Part shown: positions 21,031 to 35,026 of the stretch, piece after piece
Position numbering within the stretch: the stretch's first letter is position 1
Layout of the letters: every line of letters starts with the position of its first letter
Assembly (NCBI GenBank): GCA_003153375.1
Contig: PLYM01000255.1
Location: 9,793-47,598, forward strand
Length of the DNA stretch: 37,806 nucleotides
DNA from: Planctomycetaceae bacterium
GTDB lineage: Bacteria > Planctomycetota > Planctomycetia > Pirellulales > PALSA-1355
Direction: 5' to 3'
The notes under the pieces: model-generated
Seen by the model: the letters and a program-made list of their open reading frames with translations, nothing else
Told to the model about the DNA's origin: nothing
Database searches by the model: none
Translations under genes and position numbers: made by a program

Positions 21031-21867
21031 TCATGCGAGTCGACGTTGTTGCACGATCACCGCGGCGGCGATGGTCGAGAAGACGATGAGCATCTGGCCG
21101 GGACCATAGGTGAGCCAGACGCATTCGGTGTCGAGCGCGAAGTGGCCGCGAAAAAGTTCGCAGGCGAGAATCAAATCGCTGGCCAGGAAAAGCGCGGCGC
21201 CGACAGCCAACGCGAGCAGCCGCCGATCTTGCAATGCCAGGCCAGCCGTGATGCCGGCCGTGCCCGCCAGCAGCAGGGAGTAGGGCAGGGCAGGGCCTAC
21301 GAGCGGCCGCGCTTCCGTTCCCTGCACGACCACGATGTACCAGGCGACCAGGGCGACGAGTTGCCAAGCGATGATCGCCACCGCGAGCGCCGCTCGCGCG
21401 GTCAGGCCAGCGCGACGGGCCAGGACGATGCAACCAGTGATGTAGGCTACGTGCCCAAGTCCGAAGGCGACCATGCCGCCGAGCACGCCGTGAATCACGG
21501 GCACGAACTCGAGCCAGCCGGCGTTGAAGAAATCGCCGATCGCCCCGGCCATCATGCCGAGCGCGATCCAGAAGGCGAATCGGCCCAGGCCCAGTTGGCG
21601 CCACCAGGCAGCCGAGAGCCAGGCGGCAGCAACCAGCACGAGCGACGAGGCCATGCGCGCGGCGGTGGCTGGCAGCGCGCCGTGAGCGGGTGGCATGTCG
21701 GCACTGGGGAAGCCCAGAAAGCCGGCCCAACTGGGATTGCCCAGCAGCATCGCGGCGGTCAGCAGCGCGGCCCAGGTGATCCAGAGCACGACGAACGCGG
21801 CGAGCAACGTCGACGACGCACGACGGGGCGCCGACCAGCGGGCGGCTGACGGATCGAAGTCGATCAT
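21031..21867 (-). CDS. YhhN (TMEM86/lysoplasmalogenase) family membrane protein
   Basis: A 278-aa integral membrane protein with about eight hydrophobic segments. YhhN-type motifs are visible: GAIGDFFNAGW (Gly-Asp-Phe), FGLGHVAYITGC (Gly-His-x-x-Tyr) and GAALFLASDLILA (Phe-x-x-Ser-Asp). Characterised relatives hydrolyse the vinyl-ether bond of lysoplasmalogens, but many bacterial members are untested. The ATG at 21867 (MIDFDPSAARW) is preferred. ATGs at 21888 and 21915 would extend it by 7 or 16 residues. A small hairpin (CGACTC 21027-21032, GAGTCG 21037-21042) overlaps the stop and may separate it from the convergent gene. Confidence 0.75.
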   Translation of the reverse strand: MIDFDPSAARWSAPRRASSTLLAAFVVLWITWAALLTAAMLLGNPSWAGFLGFPSADMPPAHGALPATAARMASSLVLVAAAWLSAAWWRQLGLGRFAFWIALGMMAGAIGDFFNAGWLEFVPVIHGVLGGMVAFGLGHVAYITGCIVLARRAGLTARAALAVAIIAWQLVALVAWYIVVVQGTEARPLVGPALPYSLLLAGTAGITAGLALQDRRLLALAVGAALFLASDLILACELFRGHFALDTECVWLTYGPGQMLIVFSTIAAAVIVQQRRLA

Positions 21868-22200
21868 GGCTTTCTTTCCGCCTAACATTCTCTGGCTGGG
21901 CGTTGATTTCTTCACATCGTCGATCAGACCGCGATCCTACCCCGCCTGGCCGGCAGTTCAAAGTGGCCTGGTTTTCGGCGCTGACAAACGGGGGAGCGAG
22001 GTGGTAGGGTCTGTTCATCGGGCGATCGCTCCCACGGTCGTTCGCCTGTGACGCCCAAATCACTCCCGGCCCGAGCCGGGATCTGGCCCTGCCGCGCCCG
22101 GCGGCGTTTTGCCGCGACCCACCCCTTCGAGCGCGCCGTGATCGGCGCGCGACGCGCGAGCGTTGTTGCCTTTTCGCAGCCCCATTAGGAGTTTCGCTCA
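21868..22200. other. Divergent intergenic region with a GC hairpin
   Basis: About 330 bases between the YhhN-type gene and the acidic protein gene. GCGCGCC at 22131-22137 pairs with GGCGCGC at 22144-22150 about 50 bases before the rightward ATG. It may be a 5' untranslated hairpin or an operator. AGGAG at about 22187 is the ribosome site of the acidic protein. Nothing else is clear. Confidence 0.45.
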
Positions 22201-23153: not shown

Positions 23154-23909
23154 CTACCGTCTGATGTTGAATAACGGATCTCGCGACCGAATCAATTCCG
23201 TCTCGAGTGCTCTTCGAACCCGCGTCGAGGTGTCCGATGGAAGAACATGCACCTCAACGAGGATCTCGCTTGGACCGTCCCCCCAGAGCCATCGAGCAAA
23301 ACCCTTGTTGTCAGAATGGTCGAGATGCTTGCGAATTCTGTTTTGCAGATTTTCGGCTTCTCCGACATATAGCGTGCTGTGCTTCGTCAAGAAGACATAG
23401 AGTCCCTGCTTGGCAGGCAACCTGCTGAGATCGACACTTGCGACTTCCAGAATCTCAACCGTTTCGGCAGGAATTACGCGACTAACAACTTCGGGTTTGA
23501 GCTGTCGTCCCTTTCGTAGATTGAGTGCAGCCCATCGGTACTCGACGGGGCGGTAGCCCGGGGCAATCCGATCAGCCAGTCGATCAAATTCTGTGGCAAC
23601 TTCGGGGTCGCAAATGATGTCATCCAAGCTCAAGGCATCGCGTCGTTCGACGAACCGCGCCGCGATTTCGGCAGCGAATCGATATTCATCTTCTTCGAGA
23701 AATGTTGATCGTTTGGACTTTAGGCCCCGCAGGCCGCCTTGCTTTCGGAGGTTCAGCAGTGATCGATTGAGTGCCGAAGCGGGTTCAACGAGCCCCAGGC
23801 AGCGACACTCCTTTAGGAAGACTTCGTCAAGCTCTGGATCAGCGACCACTCGGTCAGGGGAGTATCCCGAACAGGCCAATTCGTAAGCTGCTCGCAGCTT
23901 CGATTTCAT
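23154..23909 (-). CDS. GIY-YIG nuclease-like protein, paralogue of the methyltransferase C-terminal half
   Basis: A 251-aa protein. Residues about 1-60 and 72-135 are two helical modules, each with a 'D-x-(V/I)-x-x-DP' centre (PDRVVADPELDE and LDDIICDPEVAT). A GIY-YIG domain follows (about 160-251). It starts with KQGLYVF, then LYVGEAENLQNRIRKHL, and ends ALETELIRSRDPLFN. The Glu at residue 236 matches the catalytic Glu of UvrC-type GIY-YIG nucleases, so cleavage activity is plausible. The upstream methyltransferase has the same architecture at its C-terminus. The ATG at 23909 overlaps that gene's stop as ATGA, so the two are translationally coupled. The longer open frame upstream lies inside the methyltransferase gene. 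It may be the endonuclease of a restriction-modification-like pair. Confidence 0.82.
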   Translation of the reverse strand: MKSKLRAAYELACSGYSPDRVVADPELDEVFLKECRCLGLVEPASALNRSLLNLRKQGGLRGLKSKRSTFLEEDEYRFAAEIAARFVERRDALSLDDIICDPEVATEFDRLADRIAPGYRPVEYRWAALNLRKGRQLKPEVVSRVIPAETVEILEVASVDLSRLPAKQGLYVFLTKHSTLYVGEAENLQNRIRKHLDHSDNKGFARWLWGDGPSEILVEVHVLPSDTSTRVRRALETELIRSRDPLFNIRR

Positions 23910-25612
23910 GCGTTTGACTGGTCGGGAAGATTCAAAAGCGGCTGATGTTTCATGATCATTCGATATTGGTACGCGAGCCGGTCTGCATAGTCGCAGGTAG
24001 TGCGAAAGTAATGGGCAGTTAATGACTTCCACTTCTTCCACTGCGGACGCGTCTCGATTCCAAACTGCAAGTGAAGTCTCTGACGTAAATTGCTCGATTC
24101 CCCCGCATACAACGCCTCCCGGTTGGAACGGGCGACAACAACATAAACCCCAGACTCCTCAGGAAGTTTATTTGAACTAGTCAGGTCGAGGGGTACCTCT
24201 TTGTTGAATTGAACATCCATCAGCAACTTCGCTCGAGATCGCCCCAGTTTGGCACTTTTGCGTAGCCGCATTGCGGCCCAGCGGTACTGCAACGAAGTAA
24301 ATCCGGGCGCCCATTTTCGAGCGATTTCGTCGAACTCTGCAGCCAAGAAGGGGTCGCAGAGGATGCTATCCAAGCTTTCGTGCCCGGCCTTGATCATGTC
24401 TCGCCATGCAATTTCACTTGCGAATAGAAAATTCTCGCAGTCTTCTCGGCGGATTTCCGTGCGCCGCCGCGCGGGGAACTCAACCAGCAGGCCGGCCTTG
24501 CGCATGCCGAACAACGTCCGGTTCCAGGAGCGCGGCTCGCCCGGCAAGCCAAGCTGGCGGCAGCGGTCGGCGAGTTGACCGTTCAACTCGGGGTCGATGA
24601 TCACGCGATCGAGTGAGTAACCGTCGTGCGTGGCCCGAAACGCGTCGAGCAGGCCGTCGTGCAGCACCTTTGCCTGAGTCCGCAGCGCCGCGTCGGCTAC
24701 CGGCGGGTCGATGCGCTTGGTCGTTTGCAGACGCTTGCCTTTGACGCCCGGCGCGGCGGTGGCTGGAGCGCTAATAGTGGGCTCGGCGGCGCCTTCCAAG
24801 GGATCGCCGACGCAGACGCGATTCAGCCGGGCCGTGCCGCGCTCGACGTAATCTTCCGAGAGATCGAAGGCCAGGTAGCGGCGGCCGAGCTTCTTGGCGA
24901 CGGCCACGGTGGTGGCGCTGCCGCTGAAGGGATCGAACACCACCTCGTTCGGAGCCGAGCAGAGGCGGATGATGCGGCCCAGCAATTGCTCGGGCATCTG
25001 GCAGCCGTGGAAGCCGGCCCGCTCCTTGAACGTGCCCGCCACGCGGGGAAAGTACCAGGTGTCTTCGTCGGGCGTGAAGCAGTCGGCCAGGTCCTGCGGA
25101 CGGAGCACCCAGGTGTCGTCGGGCAGCCGGCCGTTGGGGTTCGCCCGCAGGTCGGCATAGACGAGTTGCCGGGCCGAGGGGATGCGATTTTCCAATTCGT
25201 CGCCGCGAAAGGTGAACCGCTTGGGGTCCTTGACGAAATAGAACAGGTGGGCGTGCGAGCGGCTGAACTTTTGCTTGCAGTTGACGCCGAACGTGTAGTA
25301 CCAGATCACCCAACTGCGCGGGTGGAAGCCGACCGCCTGGCTGGCCAGCTTCAACTCGGCGGCATATTCGTCGCCAATCGCCAGCCAAAACGATCCGTCG
25401 TCAGCCAGCACGCGATGCACCGCCGCGATCCAACGGCTCGACCAGTCGAGATACGCATCGCGCGTTTGCTTGTCGTTATAGACGTCGTACTCGTAGCCAA
25501 TGTTGAACGGCGGATCGGCAAAGGCTAGGTTGACCGAGCCGGCCGGCAGGGCGTTCATTCCCTCGATGCAATCGCAACGGCGAATCGTGTTGAAGCGTTG
25601 AAGCACATCCAT
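23906..25612 (-). CDS. DNA methyltransferase fused to helical modules and a GIY-YIG domain
   Basis: A 568-aa protein. Residues 1-260 are an N6-adenine or N4-cytosine methyltransferase. Motif IV, ADPPFN (32-37), precedes the SAM motif FDPFSGSATT (near 226-235), which is the beta-class order. The segment between (about 90-200) should recognise DNA. Two helical modules follow (about 312-380 and 395-465; GYSLDRVIIDPELN and SLDSILCDPFLA). A GIY-YIG-like domain ends the protein (about 484-568; ESGVYVVVARS, ALYAGESSNLRQRL). At residue 549 it has Gln where UvrC-type enzymes have catalytic Glu, so it may be inactive or only bind DNA. The methyltransferase part has host-like high GC, while the rest is visibly less GC-rich. 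The ATG at 25612 has AAGGA 9 bases upstream. Confidence 0.9.
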   Translation of the reverse strand: MDVLQRFNTIRRCDCIEGMNALPAGSVNLAFADPPFNIGYEYDVYNDKQTRDAYLDWSSRWIAAVHRVLADDGSFWLAIGDEYAAELKLASQAVGFHPRSWVIWYYTFGVNCKQKFSRSHAHLFYFVKDPKRFTFRGDELENRIPSARQLVYADLRANPNGRLPDDTWVLRPQDLADCFTPDEDTWYFPRVAGTFKERAGFHGCQMPEQLLGRIIRLCSAPNEVVFDPFSGSATTVAVAKKLGRRYLAFDLSEDYVERGTARLNRVCVGDPLEGAAEPTISAPATAAPGVKGKRLQTTKRIDPPVADAALRTQAKVLHDGLLDAFRATHDGYSLDRVIIDPELNGQLADRCRQLGLPGEPRSWNRTLFGMRKAGLLVEFPARRRTEIRREDCENFLFASEIAWRDMIKAGHESLDSILCDPFLAAEFDEIARKWAPGFTSLQYRWAAMRLRKSAKLGRSRAKLLMDVQFNKEVPLDLTSSNKLPEESGVYVVVARSNREALYAGESSNLRQRLHLQFGIETRPQWKKWKSLTAHYFRTTCDYADRLAYQYRMIMKHQPLLNLPDQSNA

Positions 25613-25827: not shown

Positions 25828-28650
25828 TTAGTTCGCAAGCAAGCTGCCGAATTCCAAATACCCGCGTCGTCCGAGCCGATCAATCAGCTTCTTCGCGGCA
25901 TCTCGTGGCGGACCGGACGTCTTGAGCGCCGATTCGAGGATTTCTCTCGCAGAATCACGCCAAAGATATATCCGCCATCCATCTTTGTCCCCGTCGACGA
26001 TTTTCTGCAAAATGGCGACCGATCTTGCTATATCTGTCTCACAGATCTTCGCAAGACGCGGCACAACTTCGTTTTCGGGGGATGGCATGGGAACGACGGA
26101 AACGAATTCTTCGAGCCGTTCGATAGACCAGTCCTTCGGAAGGGCTCCGGAACTGAACCACTGCCCGAATAGGTAGGCGTGCGGCTTCGCCGCAGCGTCG
26201 CTTGGACCGGAGGATTTCCAGTAGGACTCCCAAAGTAGCATTAGCCGTTGAATGAGAGGGGCCGGTAGGTCCGATTCCCGCTCGATACTGATGCCAACAA
26301 AGGCGATCGCATGGCGACGAATATCTGGATTGGTCACAGCTATAAAACGCGAAAAGAGTCCGTGCCCGTCGAGATTTAATTCCCCCCGACCGTACAAAAC
26401 TACGAGGTGTTCCCCAAGGCGAAACATTGGTTGAGAATAATCAGTATCTTGGATCGTCACGCGCGAAGACTGCTCAACTGCATACTCGAACTGCGATTTG
26501 AAAAGGCGATACAGCTCAATGCGAGGGTTAACCCAGACAAGAAACGAATTCCACGCAGCCCAGCCACAAGCCGTGCTTGGCGAACGGTCGTACTCACGAA
26601 GATCGAATAACCTTTCAGCATTTGACGACAACCAATTGACGTCCAACCATTCAATGAGACCTATTCTTGCGCCAATCACCGACAGCGCCTCAAAAGTGCG
26701 ATTTTCGGGAGCAATTTGACGATCAAGAAACTCGCGAACCTCCGGCATGCCGTCAAATCCTGCGGCCAACGACTTAGCATTTGCGTCGCCTATCTGTCGC
26801 CCCAACCAACGGGCGTAGTCAAGCGCAGCGTCGACTGCTCGCCCGCGAGGCGAATTTATCCCGAAAATTAAGTAATCTTGAAGCTGCGGATCGTCTTCTG
26901 TGGATCTAATAACATTTGACGTCGCGCTATCGTGTAGCGCACTTGTTACCAGCTCCCAAAGTGTGGTCCGATATGTCGCTACGTCGTACCGAGGCTGCTC
27001 GTCGGAATCGGCCTTGCAAACTGCACCCACGAACCCGATTACTTCATTTCGGACTTCTTGCCAGGGTTGACCGTCGATCTGACCCTGAGACTCGTCAGAT
27101 TCACGTCGTTTTGCCGGCCCTTCGTAAATCAACCATTTGCACAATGCCAAGACTGAACCGACGTCAATCAATTCGCCAGCAGTTACAGCAATTGCCATCT
27201 TTCCAATAAATGCGGACACGCAAGCCGCCACCGATCCCTTTAGAATTGCCGCCTCGGCCGAACATTCGACCGCTCGGACGCGGACATAGTCGCCGAAGAC
27301 GGCGGCAACCGCTGTGATATCGTCGCGGTCGCCCGCACCGATGAATGCATCAACTACCCTAACTACTTCGGCAAATGGAAGGCTCTCCAGCTCCTCGCGG
27401 TGTATTGGGCTTTCGTGTCCCCAGCTTGAAGTAATACGCGCGCACAAATCCGCAAGCGGTGGCTCACCATGTTTGGCGCGCATCCCCAAATAGAATTGTC
27501 TTTCGTTGGTTGGAAGGTGATCTCGAATCCAGTGGAATCGCTCAAATTTCCACCATTCGGCACGATCGATATCGTTTTTGTCATATTCGCCTGCAACGCC
27601 CTTTGTCGCCGTCGGACCTGCATCGACCCATTCCAGCCACGTCTGCTGATCGCTGGAATCAAGGATGTCCCATTGTTGTCCGACCATCCGCGCATATTCA
27701 TGCTTAAGCTCCGATTGATCCAACAGGGATCGGTTCATTATTGCTTTCCGTGCGATGTCTGGATCGGTCTGCGCAAATTCGTCGATCAGATGCAACGACA
27801 GCCGTTTGAAAAGAGAGAACTTTTGCTCGTCCAGTATCTGTAGTATTTCCGCCAAGGTTGCGAAGCCACTTCCGATCCCCTGTTCCAGACACCTCGTTGC
27901 GACGCCAACCAAGCGACTCGCAAACTCAAAATCATGGTTCTCCTCATGTTCTTCAATTGTAGGTCGCCAGACAAAGGAGTAGTCGCGTCCAGTCGCTGAG
28001 TCGGTGTATTCTCTTCTCTCTATCGAAGTGTTAAGTGAAGAGACCAACAATCTGCAGAATCTCTTCGCGTCGAGAGCAAGAAGTGCCGAGGCAACTGTCT
28101 GAAGCCCCTCCAAATACTCATAACCAGCGGCGCTCGCGCGATCATTCCCGCTCGGCATTCGATGCGATGAGAAAAGAGTGCCTGCAAGTTGGAACGCCGT
28201 CTCGTTCTCCATGCCAGTGGCGAGATGAACACAAAGCTTCGTTGCGTTGCCAACTCCGTACCAAAGCGAGTCGCGATCGACAGCTTGGCAAATCTGCGGA
28301 ACGAGTTTTTTGGCGAGCGTCGGAGCCATTTCGATCGCCGCGACAAGCATGTCGTCTATGACGGACGCGTTCTCCGTCTTAATCTTCAAAAGCACCGCCA
28401 AGACTTCTTCGGGCGCGAGCTTTGCCATCCTCGCCAGGTAGGAGGATGCAGCCCACTTTGGATGACGAGTTCCGCCGCCCTCTACGGTCTCAACCGAGGG
28501 TGCTGTGGCGAACAGCGAGCGCGCAGCCAAAGGCCCGATCCAATAAGGATTTTCCAAACGATCAAAGAAGTAGGCCTCGCGTTGACGTGTGCTGAATAAC
28601 GGAACAGCTTCGTCAACTTGCTCTGGCGTTGGCGCTTTGAAGGATTGCAT
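25828..28650 (-). CDS. Large helical-repeat protein of unknown function
   Basis: A 940-aa soluble protein with no Walker A motif, signal peptide or clear membrane segment. Most of it appears to be stacked helices in an armadillo/HEAT-like style. The N-terminus has REAYFFDRLENPYWIGPLAA, then short helical units (AKLAPEEVLAVLLKI, LVAAIEMAPTLAKKLVP). The C-terminus ends AAKKLIDRLGRRGYLEFGSL. These elements remind me of helical sensor regions attached to large STAND-type defence proteins, but that is an impression, not an identification. Its start overlaps the end of the upstream 247-aa gene by 38 bases, so both are co-expressed. The DNA is clearly less GC-rich than the gyrB side, which suggests acquisition by transfer. 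No catalytic motif was found. Confidence 0.8.
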   Translation of the reverse strand: MQSFKAPTPEQVDEAVPLFSTRQREAYFFDRLENPYWIGPLAARSLFATAPSVETVEGGGTRHPKWAASSYLARMAKLAPEEVLAVLLKIKTENASVIDDMLVAAIEMAPTLAKKLVPQICQAVDRDSLWYGVGNATKLCVHLATGMENETAFQLAGTLFSSHRMPSGNDRASAAGYEYLEGLQTVASALLALDAKRFCRLLVSSLNTSIERREYTDSATGRDYSFVWRPTIEEHEENHDFEFASRLVGVATRCLEQGIGSGFATLAEILQILDEQKFSLFKRLSLHLIDEFAQTDPDIARKAIMNRSLLDQSELKHEYARMVGQQWDILDSSDQQTWLEWVDAGPTATKGVAGEYDKNDIDRAEWWKFERFHWIRDHLPTNERQFYLGMRAKHGEPPLADLCARITSSWGHESPIHREELESLPFAEVVRVVDAFIGAGDRDDITAVAAVFGDYVRVRAVECSAEAAILKGSVAACVSAFIGKMAIAVTAGELIDVGSVLALCKWLIYEGPAKRRESDESQGQIDGQPWQEVRNEVIGFVGAVCKADSDEQPRYDVATYRTTLWELVTSALHDSATSNVIRSTEDDPQLQDYLIFGINSPRGRAVDAALDYARWLGRQIGDANAKSLAAGFDGMPEVREFLDRQIAPENRTFEALSVIGARIGLIEWLDVNWLSSNAERLFDLREYDRSPSTACGWAAWNSFLVWVNPRIELYRLFKSQFEYAVEQSSRVTIQDTDYSQPMFRLGEHLVVLYGRGELNLDGHGLFSRFIAVTNPDIRRHAIAFVGISIERESDLPAPLIQRLMLLWESYWKSSGPSDAAAKPHAYLFGQWFSSGALPKDWSIERLEEFVSVVPMPSPENEVVPRLAKICETDIARSVAILQKIVDGDKDGWRIYLWRDSAREILESALKTSGPPRDAAKKLIDRLGRRGYLEFGSLLAN

Positions 28651-29356
28651 CTAGCTCCTTGGTTCCTGTGAAGAAACTCCCCACAAAGCTGTGCAGAATG
28701 TTCTCGAAAGCCTCAAATTGTCGCCGCAGCTCAGCCTCGTCCACCGCCGGCACGCCGTCGGTGCGAAGATGCGCTCTGTCCATAAACCATTCGCGAACAT
28801 CTTGAAATGCTTTCACAATGCGCTCGTTCACGTCCGCACCTGGTGCCTCGGCACGTGCGAGAATCTCAAATAGAATTTTGTGAGCGCTCGGCCGTGACCG
28901 GCGCAGACGGTGTTCCCCTACCAGAACATCGATACGCCTTGCAACCTTGACAGGAATTGGGTACGTCTCGACTACGGGTGGACCTCCTGATTGGCAGAAG
29001 CCGTCGCCCATCGGCCAGTCGCGTGCAATTTTGTCCAAATGGCTTTCGTAATGAACACGTGAAGGTGCTTGCTGCGGATCGAGAATAAAAACGAGTCGAT
29101 CCGAGATGTCGCGAACCGCGTGCGCTATGAAGTGAAGGCGTCCCGGAAATGCGACGTCTTCAAGCAACTTCACCGCTCCGCGGTATGCATCAGCAACCGA
29201 CGGTGCCTGTTGACGAAACCAGTGCAAAAGCTCGATGCGCGACTGCGGCCAACTCGACTCGCTCCTAGCGTGAGCCATTAATTCGGAGTCGCTGCCGTCG
29301 ACATTAGTCGGATTGACTCCTTCATGGTGGCTCATGGTGTTGCCAAACTGGAGCAT
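28613..29356 (-). CDS. Unknown protein paired with the 940-aa protein
   Basis: A 247-aa soluble protein that I cannot assign. Helical stretches include PQSRIELLHWFRQQ, VADAYRGAVKLLEDV, the distinctive FPGRLHFIAHAVRDISDRL (70-88), then basic HRLRRSRPSAHKILFEIL (149-166). The C-terminal EAFENILHSFVGSFFTGTKE includes a possible amphipathic segment. The gene begins 11 bases after the gyrB stop on the same strand and ends 38 bases inside the 940-aa gene. The ATG at 29356 has GAGAG upstream. An ATG at 29335 is possible but has no ribosome site. The layout suggests a two-gene module, perhaps defence-related, transcribed with or just after gyrB. Confidence 0.78.
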   Translation of the reverse strand: MLQFGNTMSHHEGVNPTNVDGSDSELMAHARSESSWPQSRIELLHWFRQQAPSVADAYRGAVKLLEDVAFPGRLHFIAHAVRDISDRLVFILDPQQAPSRVHYESHLDKIARDWPMGDGFCQSGGPPVVETYPIPVKVARRIDVLVGEHRLRRSRPSAHKILFEILARAEAPGADVNERIVKAFQDVREWFMDRAHLRTDGVPAVDEAELRRQFEAFENILHSFVGSFFTGTKELDAILQSANARAS

Positions 29357-29367
29357 CGACTAATCTC

Positions 29368-32321
<2,954 letters not shown>

Positions 32322-32418
32322 CGATCCCTAACCAGTCTGTTGCTAAGTTTCAATTATTCGACGCTAGCCGCGGGAAGAACAGTCGTGCTCAGTGCTTCTC
32401 GGACCAATGGGTCTCGAA

Positions 32419-33534
32419 TCAATGATCGCGGGCCAACGGCATGATCACATAGCCGTAGCCATCGTCGGTCGAACAGACCGCCGCGCTCTCGCTGTCTTTG
32501 AGTTCGACCGTGACTACTTTCTCCGGATCGAGAACTTTCAAAAAATCACTGACGAACCGCGGATCGAGCGTGATCGAGAGCTCGGCGCCGTCGTAGGCGA
32601 TGGGCAACTCGACGCGCGACTGTCCGAGTTCGGCCGCCCGACCGCTGAGAACCAGGGAGCCGGCTTTGAAATTGAAATCGACGCCGCGGCTCTCTTCGCT
32701 GGTGACGATCGCCGCCTGGCGCACGGCCGAATGGAGCGGACCGACGGTCAGCTCGACCTTGGCCGCGTTGGTGCGTTGCGGGAACACGTCGCGCCACTTG
32801 GGAAACCGGCCCTCGACCAGCCGCGAATAGATCGTGGCCCGCGGACTGCGGATCAGGATTTCGTTGGGCCGGGCGGCGAGCTGAATCTCGGCGTCGCCGT
32901 CGGTCAGGGCCCGCTCGATGAGTTGCATCGCCTTGCTGGGCACGATCGTCATGCTGTCGCCCGACTGATGCCCACCGACGCTATGGGCAGGGACTTCCAT
33001 CTTGGCCAGTCGCCGCCCGTCGGTGCCGACGCCGACGATTTTTTCCGGCCCCATTTCCAAGAGCACGCCTCCCAGGGCATAGCGGCTGCTCTCGTTGTCG
33101 GTGGCAAAAATCGTGCGCTTGATCAACTCACGCAGCAGGCGGGCCGAAAGTTCGTGATAAGCGCCTTCCTGAAAATCGGCGACGGCCGGGAACTCTTGCG
33201 GGTTTTCCGAAGGGAGCTTGAACTCGCTGCGCTCGCCCCGCACGGTCGTCGACTGACCGTCGGATTCGAGGTGCAGCATGTCGTCGGAGCTTTCGCGCAA
33301 GATCGAGCCAAAGCGGCCCAGCGGCAAAATCGCGCTGCCGGGGGTGTGAACCTGAATGCCCGGCACCTGGATGCGAATGCCAATTTCCAAATCGGTGGCC
33401 AGCAGAATCGCCCCCTGATCACTCACCTCGAGCTTGATGTTCTGCAAAATCGGTTTGGGGCTGCGCGAGGGCACGACCGCCGCCGCGGTTTGAAACGCGG
33501 CCAGCAGTGCCTCGCGGTCGCAAGTGACCTTCAT
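32419..33534 (-). CDS. dnaN: DNA polymerase III beta sliding clamp
   Basis: A 371-aa clamp, normal length. It starts MKVTCDREALLAAFQTAAAV and continues KPILQNIKLEV and ATDLEIGIRIQV. The middle domain has RYALGGVLLE and VGTDGRRLAKME, and the C-terminus ends YGYVIMPLARDH, close to the family's 'y..MP.r' ending. As a ring-shaped dimer it tethers DNA polymerases to the template. The ATG at 33534 has AGGAAAGG upstream. A longer frame through the origin region is not clamp-like. It follows dnaA across the putative oriC. Confidence 0.96.
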   Translation of the reverse strand: MKVTCDREALLAAFQTAAAVVPSRSPKPILQNIKLEVSDQGAILLATDLEIGIRIQVPGIQVHTPGSAILPLGRFGSILRESSDDMLHLESDGQSTTVRGERSEFKLPSENPQEFPAVADFQEGAYHELSARLLRELIKRTIFATDNESSRYALGGVLLEMGPEKIVGVGTDGRRLAKMEVPAHSVGGHQSGDSMTIVPSKAMQLIERALTDGDAEIQLAARPNEILIRSPRATIYSRLVEGRFPKWRDVFPQRTNAAKVELTVGPLHSAVRQAAIVTSEESRGVDFNFKAGSLVLSGRAAELGQSRVELPIAYDGAELSITLDPRFVSDFLKVLDPEKVVTVELKDSESAAVCSTDDGYGYVIMPLARDH

Positions 33535-33901
33535 GTCGAGATGCCTTTCCTGGTGGTTGATTGCTGAAACCCGGTCGTGGGTTCGCTTCGCTCCAACATG
33601 CGAACCGCTCGCCTGGGTCCTTCCTGATATCCCTAAATAATTAAAAGTAGTAGTAGTAAAAGGACCGGGCGAAATTGTCGATCGCCGGCCACTGCCTGCT
33701 GCTAAGTGAAACCCCAGCGGCAACTTGCCAGGCTCGGGGAAGCAGAAAACGGTGTGCATAAAGCGTTGACGACGCGTCGCGCGGCCGTCGGTCGCATGTC
33801 GATCGCGGACGCGTTTTGTCGAAGCGACGGATTCGTGTGTTGCCACGGGCCCCAAGAGCCCACGGCCGTCGACCGATCGCGACAAGTTTTCCACGCGTGG
33901 T
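33535..33901. other. Probable oriC between dnaA and dnaN
   Basis: This 367-base gene-free region holds the only markedly AT-rich tract nearby (33634-33661, TAAATAATTAAAAG and following), carrying four overlapping TAG/TAA triplets. Two DnaA-box-like sites lie to the right: TGTGCATAA at 33753-33761 (TTATGCACA on the minus strand, fits TTWTNCACA) and TTTTCCACG at 33887-33895 (one mismatch). Position in a dnaA-dnaN cluster is the commonest place for bacterial origins. The number of boxes is low, so assignment rests on the combined evidence. Confidence 0.65.
33648..33658 (+). promoter_or_regulatory. DnaA-trio-like unwinding element
   Basis: TAGTAGTAGTA sits beside the AT tract TAAATAATTAAAA. In the basal origin model of Bacillus subtilis, DnaA polymerises from boxes onto 3'-GAT/AAT-5' triplets. 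Read 3' to 5' on the plus strand, this element runs leftwards from the box side into the AT tract, which is the expected polarity. The nearest box seen is about 95 bases away, further than in the model. Confidence 0.5.
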
Positions 33902-34963
33902 TCATGGCGCCACCAGCAGCTTTTTCAGATCGGTCACGGCCTGCCGGGTGGTGCGGTCGCGGCGCAGTAGTTTCTCGACGCGACCCACTCCGTAGATCAC
34001 GGTGGTGTGGTCGCGACCGCCGAAAAAGTCGCCGATTTGCTTGAGGCTCTTGCCCGAAAGTTGCCGGGCCAGGTACATCGCCACGTTGCGGGCGGCCACC
34101 AGGGGCTGTCGTCGCAGCGGGCTCTTCAAGTCGGCAACCTTGAGACCGAAGTAGCGGGCCGTCAGCCGGGCGACGTCGCGCAACTCGGGCGTCCTCGTGC
34201 TGTCGCGCTGGCTGAGGAACGTCGCCAGGTTCGCTGGCGAGGCCGAGCCCGCGGTAATCTGCGATTGGAGTTCCAACTCGAGCAGCGCCGCGATCAGTTC
34301 CGGCACGCTGCCGGCGAGGCCTTGAGCCAGCGAGCGCACGGTGCGCTTCGGCAAGGAAATGCCACGCACGGCCGCCACACGCTCCAGGATGGCCGCACGA
34401 GCACTCATGCCAGGCAACGCCAAGGGCACAGCCAGTCCGGCCGACAGCCGGCTGCGCAGCGAGCTCAACAAGCCGGGGGCATGATTCGGCAGCGCGCGGG
34501 CCGTGACCACGACCAGCGCTCCGCGTTCGACCAATGCGTCGAGCGCGTGCAGCAACTCTCCTTGTGCGGTTCGCTTGGAGACCAACTGCCCCAGATCTTC
34601 CACGATCAATAGCGCGGCCCCGTGCAGTTCAGCGCGCCACGCTTCGAGCCGCCCGTCGGCCAGCGCGGCGGTGTGGGCTTCGGCAAATTCGGCGGCGGTC
34701 TGACAGATGACGCGAGCGGTGGGAAACTTCAGCCGCCACCAGGCCGCCAGGCCGTGGGCCAGATGCGACTTGCCGCTGCCGTGCGGACCGTAGAGGACCA
34801 GCGGGTTGTATTCGGTCGCGACGCTGTCGAGAAAAGGCTGGATCGCGGTGGCGGCCAGGCTGTTTTCAGGACCGGCGACGAACTCGCCCAAGCGCTCCAC
34901 GGCCGCCGTTGATGAGCGAGCGGCAAGGCCTGGCAGGGGGATCGTGAATACGCCAGTCACCAC
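33902..34963 (-). CDS. dnaA: Chromosomal replication initiator DnaA, short form
   Basis: A protein of about 353 aa, shorter than the usual 440-470 aa. The AAA+ domain has LYGPHGSGKSHL (Walker A, residues 59-66), a Walker B-like LLIVEDLGQL (120-123 region, Glu in place of the first Asp), and SSLRSRLSAGL with an arginine finger. The C-terminal helix-turn-helix ends in FGGRDHTTVIYGV (about 314-326), the DnaA signature that binds DnaA boxes. Domain I, which contacts DnaB and regulators, is missing, and domain II is nearly absent. Possible starts are GTG 34963 (preferred, GGACGGA upstream), GTG 34993 and TTG 35026. The last overlaps the likely promoter. It is the first gene of the dnaA-dnaN-dciA-gyrB cluster. 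Confidence 0.92.
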   Translation of the reverse strand: MVTGVFTIPLPGLAARSSTAAVERLGEFVAGPENSLAATAIQPFLDSVATEYNPLVLYGPHGSGKSHLAHGLAAWWRLKFPTARVICQTAAEFAEAHTAALADGRLEAWRAELHGAALLIVEDLGQLVSKRTAQGELLHALDALVERGALVVVTARALPNHAPGLLSSLRSRLSAGLAVPLALPGMSARAAILERVAAVRGISLPKRTVRSLAQGLAGSVPELIAALLELELQSQITAGSASPANLATFLSQRDSTRTPELRDVARLTARYFGLKVADLKSPLRRQPLVAARNVAMYLARQLSGKSLKQIGDFFGGRDHTTVIYGVGRVEKLLRRDRTTRQAVTDLKKLLVAP

Positions 34964-35026
34964 GGCGGGTCCGTCCAAACGAAAGGGGTCCACGATACGA
35001 AAGATTTCGCAAAATCGAGAACCCAA

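Follow-up and report, generated by a model that had tools for sequence, protein, structure and literature searches.

The window, meaning the whole 37,806-nucleotide stretch of Planctomycetaceae bacterium DNA analysed here (contig PLYM01000255.1, positions 9,793 to 47,598), contains a methyltransferase gene followed by a nuclease gene, and the nuclease is homologous throughout to the C-terminal part of the methyltransferase. The larger protein, M (568 aa; positions 23906 to 25612, minus strand), is a beta-class N6/N4 DNA methyltransferase (Pfam N6_N4_Mtase, 1.8e-48) with a C-terminal unit made up of two helical modules and a degenerate GIY-YIG domain. The smaller, R (251 aa; 23154 to 23909, minus strand), consists of two such modules and a GIY-YIG nuclease domain in which the canonical catalytic residues are complete. 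The pair probably represents a Type II-like restriction-modification (R-M) cassette, whose nuclease and methyltransferase would share an accessory unit through duplication; judged from the sequences, this reading has a probability of roughly 0.7.

By BLASTP, R and M are identical at 75 of 247 positions (30%, E 4e-35; R 8-249 against M 324-562), and the whole length of R corresponds to the last 245 aa of M. The paralogy, proposed in a first-pass annotation of the sequence, is thus correct at the level of sequence and well above chance. The coordinates and reading frames which that annotation gave for both genes also hold, as does the overlap of the M stop and R start codons within ATGA (23906 to 23909, minus strand), and the shared motifs that it quoted are all present (GYS.DRV..DPEL, CR.LGL, CDP..A.EFD, and YRWAA..LRK). 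Its common plan of two modules plus GIY-YIG is found in both proteins, with the qualification that the GIY-YIG copy in M is degenerate. The annotation had known of no R-M family with this plan, and neither the modules nor the pair has a model in Pfam, NCBIfam, PADLOC, or PHROG.

A methyltransferase and a nuclease with one C-terminal plan

The methyltransferase domain of M spans residues 10-266 (24815 to 25585, minus strand), with motif IV (DPPF) at residues 33-36, motif I (DPFSGSATT) near residue 227, and the target-recognition region between them. The match to Pfam PF01555 and the placement of motif IV ahead of motif I identify M as a beta-class N6_N4 enzyme; M scores 143.9 bits against the YhdJ equivalog (NF008572 / PRK11524), below the curated cut-off of 292. 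The nearest solved relatives of the domain are CcrM, MboIIA, and RsrI, which share the domain and its motif IV-then-I order but lack the extension of two repeats and a pseudo-GIY-YIG domain. Near-invariance among 59 relatives extends over the whole methyltransferase domain, the target-recognition region included (mean pairwise identity 0.66), and a single methylation target common to the whole M family is therefore likely.

The C-terminal unit of M, its modules delimited by alignment with R, comprises module 1 (residues ~318-378; 24479 to 24661, minus strand), module 2 (residues ~391-455; 24248 to 24442, minus strand), and the degenerate GIY-YIG domain (residues ~475-564; 23921 to 24190, minus strand), which is expected to be inactive. 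In R, module 1 occupies residues 2-62 (23724 to 23906, minus strand; helices 2-12, 18-23, 25-37, and 44-56) and module 2 residues 72-136 (23502 to 23696, minus strand; helices 73-91, 95-100, 102-115, and 121-133). The nuclease domain (residues 155-250; 23160 to 23447, minus strand) is the one domain that Pfam detects in R (9e-8), and the AF2 model of the whole protein (pLDDT 81.7) contains no domain beyond the two-module and GIY-YIG unit.

Modules 1 and 2 are a tandem duplication of a single helical repeat of ~60 aa, a point absent from the first-pass annotation: when an 86-sequence alignment was divided in two and the halves were compared with hhalign, the probability was 97.3 (E 2e-11). In an AF2 model of the modules alone (pLDDT 94), each module has four helices, the last of which is closed by a conserved Arg-Lys. 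Within R, the pair is R55 (invariant) and K56 (near-invariant) in module 1, and R132-K133 (both invariant) in module 2. The modules had no matches in Pfam, NCBIfam, PHROGs, or PADLOC. Searches with the pLDDT 94 model returned nothing under E 0.6 in Foldseek and a best Z of 4.7 in VIA, although a new fold cannot be concluded from this failure. Module 1 of R gave weak structural matches to winged helix-turn-helix proteins (Z up to 4.9, Fur family); with the better model none exceeded 4.7, and no beta wing is visible in it. The helical repeats and the invariant Arg-Lys pairs nevertheless suggest that the modelled modules bind DNA, and they may still give R its specificity.

The closest nuclease relatives of R are UvrC domains; in predicted structure, its GIY-YIG domain matches that of UvrC with a Z of 10.5 and an rmsd of 2.2 A over 88 residues. 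Structural matches also include T4 EndoII, I-TevI, and R.Eco29kI (VIA Z 7.2 over 90 residues), with a Z of 5.3 for Hpy188I. In the comparison with R.Eco29kI, only the GIY-YIG part of R aligned, and the sequence search gave no match. The PADLOC profile UzuA is matched by R at positions 148-205 of 277 only, the GIY-YIG part, and R is not recognised as a restriction enzyme by Pfam or PADLOC.

The state of the catalytic residues distinguishes the two copies of the unit. The catalytic glutamate (Glu236 in R; codon 23202 to 23204, minus strand) is present in all 21 R relatives that reach the position, one further R sequence being cut short, and in none of 62 M units. The corresponding residue in M (Gln549; codon 23966 to 23968, minus strand) is a near-invariant glutamine, found in 45 of the 62 units and at a similar frequency in M proteins with and without an R partner (16/22 paired, 29/40 solo). 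The Tyr of GIY, the Tyr of YIG, the Arg, and the His are kept in 22 of 22 R proteins, where the Glu and an Asn are also conserved; an R-specific motif, KHLDHSDNK..ARWLW, occurs in 20 of the 22 and in no M. The GIY-YIG domain of M is missed by Pfam and weakly matched by the UvrC-type models of NCBIfam. Because the glutamate is absent from all M units, the copy in M is expected to be a pseudonuclease, and R is expected to be an active nuclease. R is also under purifying selection, with a pN of 0.13 and a pS of 0.70 between loci L089 and L090, ratios that are rough since synonymous sites are near saturation.

Duplication, gene order, and decay of the nuclease gene

Relatives were searched genome by genome in the order, phylum, and class, as well as in 84,980 species genomes, and in these searches they were confined to Planctomycetota. 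After removal of duplicates, 62 methyltransferase-fused units remained, together with 22 R proteins encoded directly downstream of one. Gene order is constant: in all 22 distinct pairs with upstream sequence, M is followed by an adjacent R on the same strand, the reverse of the never-adjacent homologues that the first-pass annotation had considered. Measured from the stop codon of M, the gap before R is -4 or -1 in 15 of these pairs, an overlap of four bases or one. No intact R was found apart from M, with the exception of L099, at a contig end; in L105, the contig covers just the C-terminal end of M.

In a module-only tree built with FastTree, R and M form separate clades of 22 sequences (SH 0.85) and 64 sequences (SH 0.71), respectively. 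The divergent R proteins of L127 and L128 lie outside the R clade, and their M partners lie within the M clade. Separate clades argue for one old duplication rather than repeated ones, and the sequences fit a single ancient event that gave rise to the R and M units. Module distances among R proteins correlate with those among M proteins (r 0.67, p 0.0005). The modules of R are no closer to those of their own M (0.403) than to those of other M proteins (0.408; permutation p 0.85), and thus the modules give no hint of gene conversion or of recognition residues particular to a pair.

R is rare relative to M. Of the 397 genomes in the class sample, about 8 have pairs and 137 have the two-module and GIY-YIG unit, mostly as solo M. 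Decay of R with retention of M is evident in L063, from the same genus, in which M is intact and R ends after ~37 codons, running into a YhhN-family gene. Comparison of L063:663-1670 with positions 21031 to 21915 and 23154 to 23909 of the window demonstrates a deletion that fused the start of R to this gene. A YhhN-family gene also lies near R in the window. Another short remnant of R is found in L132, and an R fragment in L112 adjoins a transposase-like gene. R-M pairs usually end by losing the nuclease gene and retaining the methyltransferase gene, and the decay in L063 and L132 is as expected of such a system. R was not found in phage or plasmid records; a viral contig (L133) instead has a form of the unit fused to a HicB-like protein.

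Other genes accompany the pair. A ~118-aa gene with no Pfam match (FEAELL.ELMLR.W.HPLADD ... PSCFCDP) lies directly after R in 11 cassettes (L050:8698-9063, L052:10408-10761, L053:3637-3993, and L091:10770-11129 among them) and after the solo M of L086, and L112 has a small downstream gene too. In the class search, it was found in six genomes, near M or R in all but one, where it is on a separate contig; it is absent from the window and its genome. Upstream of M in the window are overlapping genes for proteins of 940 aa and 247 aa (25828 to 28650 and 28613 to 29356, minus strand), neither with a Pfam match; the 940-aa protein weakly matches Dsr1 in PADLOC (7e-14). Farther along (29368 to 35026), the cassette neighbours gyrB at ~4 kb, with dnaN and dnaA beyond, and the pair of L050 is also near a gyrase-like gene.

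The unit on other proteins

The unit is also found on proteins other than R and M. It is C-terminal, with a degenerate GIY-YIG domain, in a Type I HsdS encoded beside HsdR (L077:6311-8797) and in DrmMI/Eco57I-like methyltransferases (L165:1299-6107, L166:2312-7120, and L164:5311-8652), those of L165 and L166 lying downstream of a helicase gene. At eight loci (L056, L057, L058, L061, L106, L107, L133, and L177), a HicB-like ribbon-helix-helix (RHH) protein carrying modules and GIY-YIG is encoded beside a D12 (Dam-like) adenine methyltransferase, an arrangement checked by sequence motif at seven of the eight and by Pfam in L056, L058, L106, L107, and L133; six of the eight have a small gene of one family upstream. 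At further loci (L068, L167-L169, and L171-L176), the modules precede a fully conserved GIY-YIG domain and follow an N-terminus that by eye resembles a signal peptide, and these proteins are possibly exported nucleases. The HsdS and DrmMI-like forms have lost the catalytic residues, the signal-peptide-like forms have all of them, and the HicB forms are mixed in this respect. Its presence on this range of proteins makes the unit an appendage used generally by DNA-modification enzymes of planctomycetes.

Explanations for the pair and their meaning

As a Type II-like R-M cassette, the pair would work as follows. The methyltransferase domain of M would itself recognise the target sequence, which M would methylate, probably at N6 of adenine, and R, as a GIY-YIG endonuclease, would cleave DNA lacking the modification. 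Each protein would carry a copy of one ~250-aa unit, a GIY-YIG domain preceded by two helical repeats of DNA-binding-like character, derived from one old duplication and since then catalytic in R and a pseudonuclease in M. Translational coupling would hold R behind M, and R would be aimed either via its own modules or by docking on M through paired GIY-YIG domains. Presumably, R cuts the site that M modifies and restricts incoming DNA. Linked, separate R and M genes (22/22) and the intact active site of R are Type II features, and adjacent separate genes with a GIY-YIG catalytic domain are likewise seen in the R.Eco29kI, Cfr42I, Hpy188I, and DraR1 systems. Unlike in those systems, all of R is homologous to a stretch of its methyltransferase, the last 245 aa, and a dead copy of the nuclease domain persists in M. 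A Type II restriction enzyme shares no sequence with its methyltransferase as a generalisation rather than by definition (PMC4081073), and the similarity of R and M (E 4e-35) breaks that rule. Weighing against an R-M cassette are the many M genes without R, which are the majority; the occurrence of the unit outside R-M pairs; the lack of a good match between the modules and any solved fold; and the silence of Pfam and PADLOC on R as a restriction enzyme.

How R finds its target is less certain. R may have no specificity of its own and may dock on M, through contact of its GIY-YIG domain with the pseudo-GIY-YIG domain or between modules, to cut at the unmodified site that M has found, following the logic of Type I or IIB systems and not that of a free-standing Type II enzyme. 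This is a tentative proposal and a sub-case of the R-M cassette, so that the probabilities of the two overlap. It is in keeping with the absence of R away from M, the lack of any domain in R besides the shared unit, the retention of a dead domain with a near-invariant Gln in M, and the correlated divergence of R and M modules. However, shared descent alone could produce that correlation, and 29 of 40 solo M proteins still have the Gln; as solo M keeps the pseudonuclease, the domain does not exist solely to hold R. The first-pass annotation had instead suggested that the modules are target-recognition parts common to R and M. In favour of this view, the modules are the sole conserved part of R beyond the nuclease domain, and an invariant Arg-Lys ends the last helix of both. 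As stated, this suggestion is unsupported and now seems somewhat doubtful: the methyltransferase domain of M already includes a target-recognition region that is conserved, module similarity within pairs shows no excess, and, as the main argument, the unit has a breadth of other carriers, of which the HsdS, DrmMI-like, and HicB-like proteins already possess separate domains for specificity or DNA binding. A broader, tentative possibility is that the duplicated unit serves planctomycetes as a shared, lineage-specific adaptor across several DNA-modification systems (beta-class methyltransferases, DrmMI-like enzymes, Type I HsdS, and, through HicB-like proteins, D12 methyltransferases). When attached to methyltransferases, it would be a conserved pseudonuclease that positions or licenses an active GIY-YIG partner, and R-M enzymes derived by duplication would recognise each other or DNA via homologous parts.

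Functions outside R-M are less probable. M could be a regulatory or replication-linked, CcrM-like methyltransferase with R as a UvrC-like repair or recombination nuclease acting at its sites. The methyltransferase domain is near-invariant across the class and mostly solo, like housekeeping methyltransferases, M of the window lies close to gyrB, dnaN, and dnaA, and R is most like UvrC; yet R is rare and patchy and has decayed in a congener, which is not the pattern of a housekeeping gene for repair and makes this explanation unlikely. It is very improbable that R is a type IV, methylation-dependent nuclease of the wH-GIY-YIG kind, like Ahi29725I and Apa233I, with modules that read methylated adenine. 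Those enzymes also place a putative DNA-binding part before GIY-YIG (PMC11037411), and the weak winged-helix-like matches of module 1 agree with this, but the modules show no wing in the pLDDT 94 model and have no good fold match. Moreover, the 6mA-dependent type IV enzymes mostly stand alone, 87% having no methyltransferase among the three genes on either side (PMC11037411), whereas R is always beside an apparently intact methyltransferase, whose modification would expose the cell's own genome to cleavage.

Other known systems resemble the pair in part. In Lactobacillales, a methyltransferase is fused to or lies beside a GIY-YIG protein (Slx1-like, COG4123; PMC1564403), but the methyltransferase class and GIY-YIG family differ, and neither modules nor a paralogous second copy is described. 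Type IIG and IIB enzymes (BcgI, TstI) have recognition parts common to restriction and modification within one protein or complex, whereas R and M are two separate proteins with homologous units. The literature searched contains no planctomycete system of such a plan and no target sequence, and it is in that sense that the system is called undescribed.

In the standard account, Type II restriction enzymes and methyltransferases are unrelated and were joined by gene association, not duplication (PMC4081073). The R/M family departs from this published generalisation, being a clear case of a nuclease mostly homologous to its own methyltransferase, in which a dead copy is preserved. Its sequences suggest an R-M pair built by gene duplication, and the origin of matched specificity becomes directly testable in this family, which also adds an undescribed unit recurring on several DNA-modification enzymes within one phylum.
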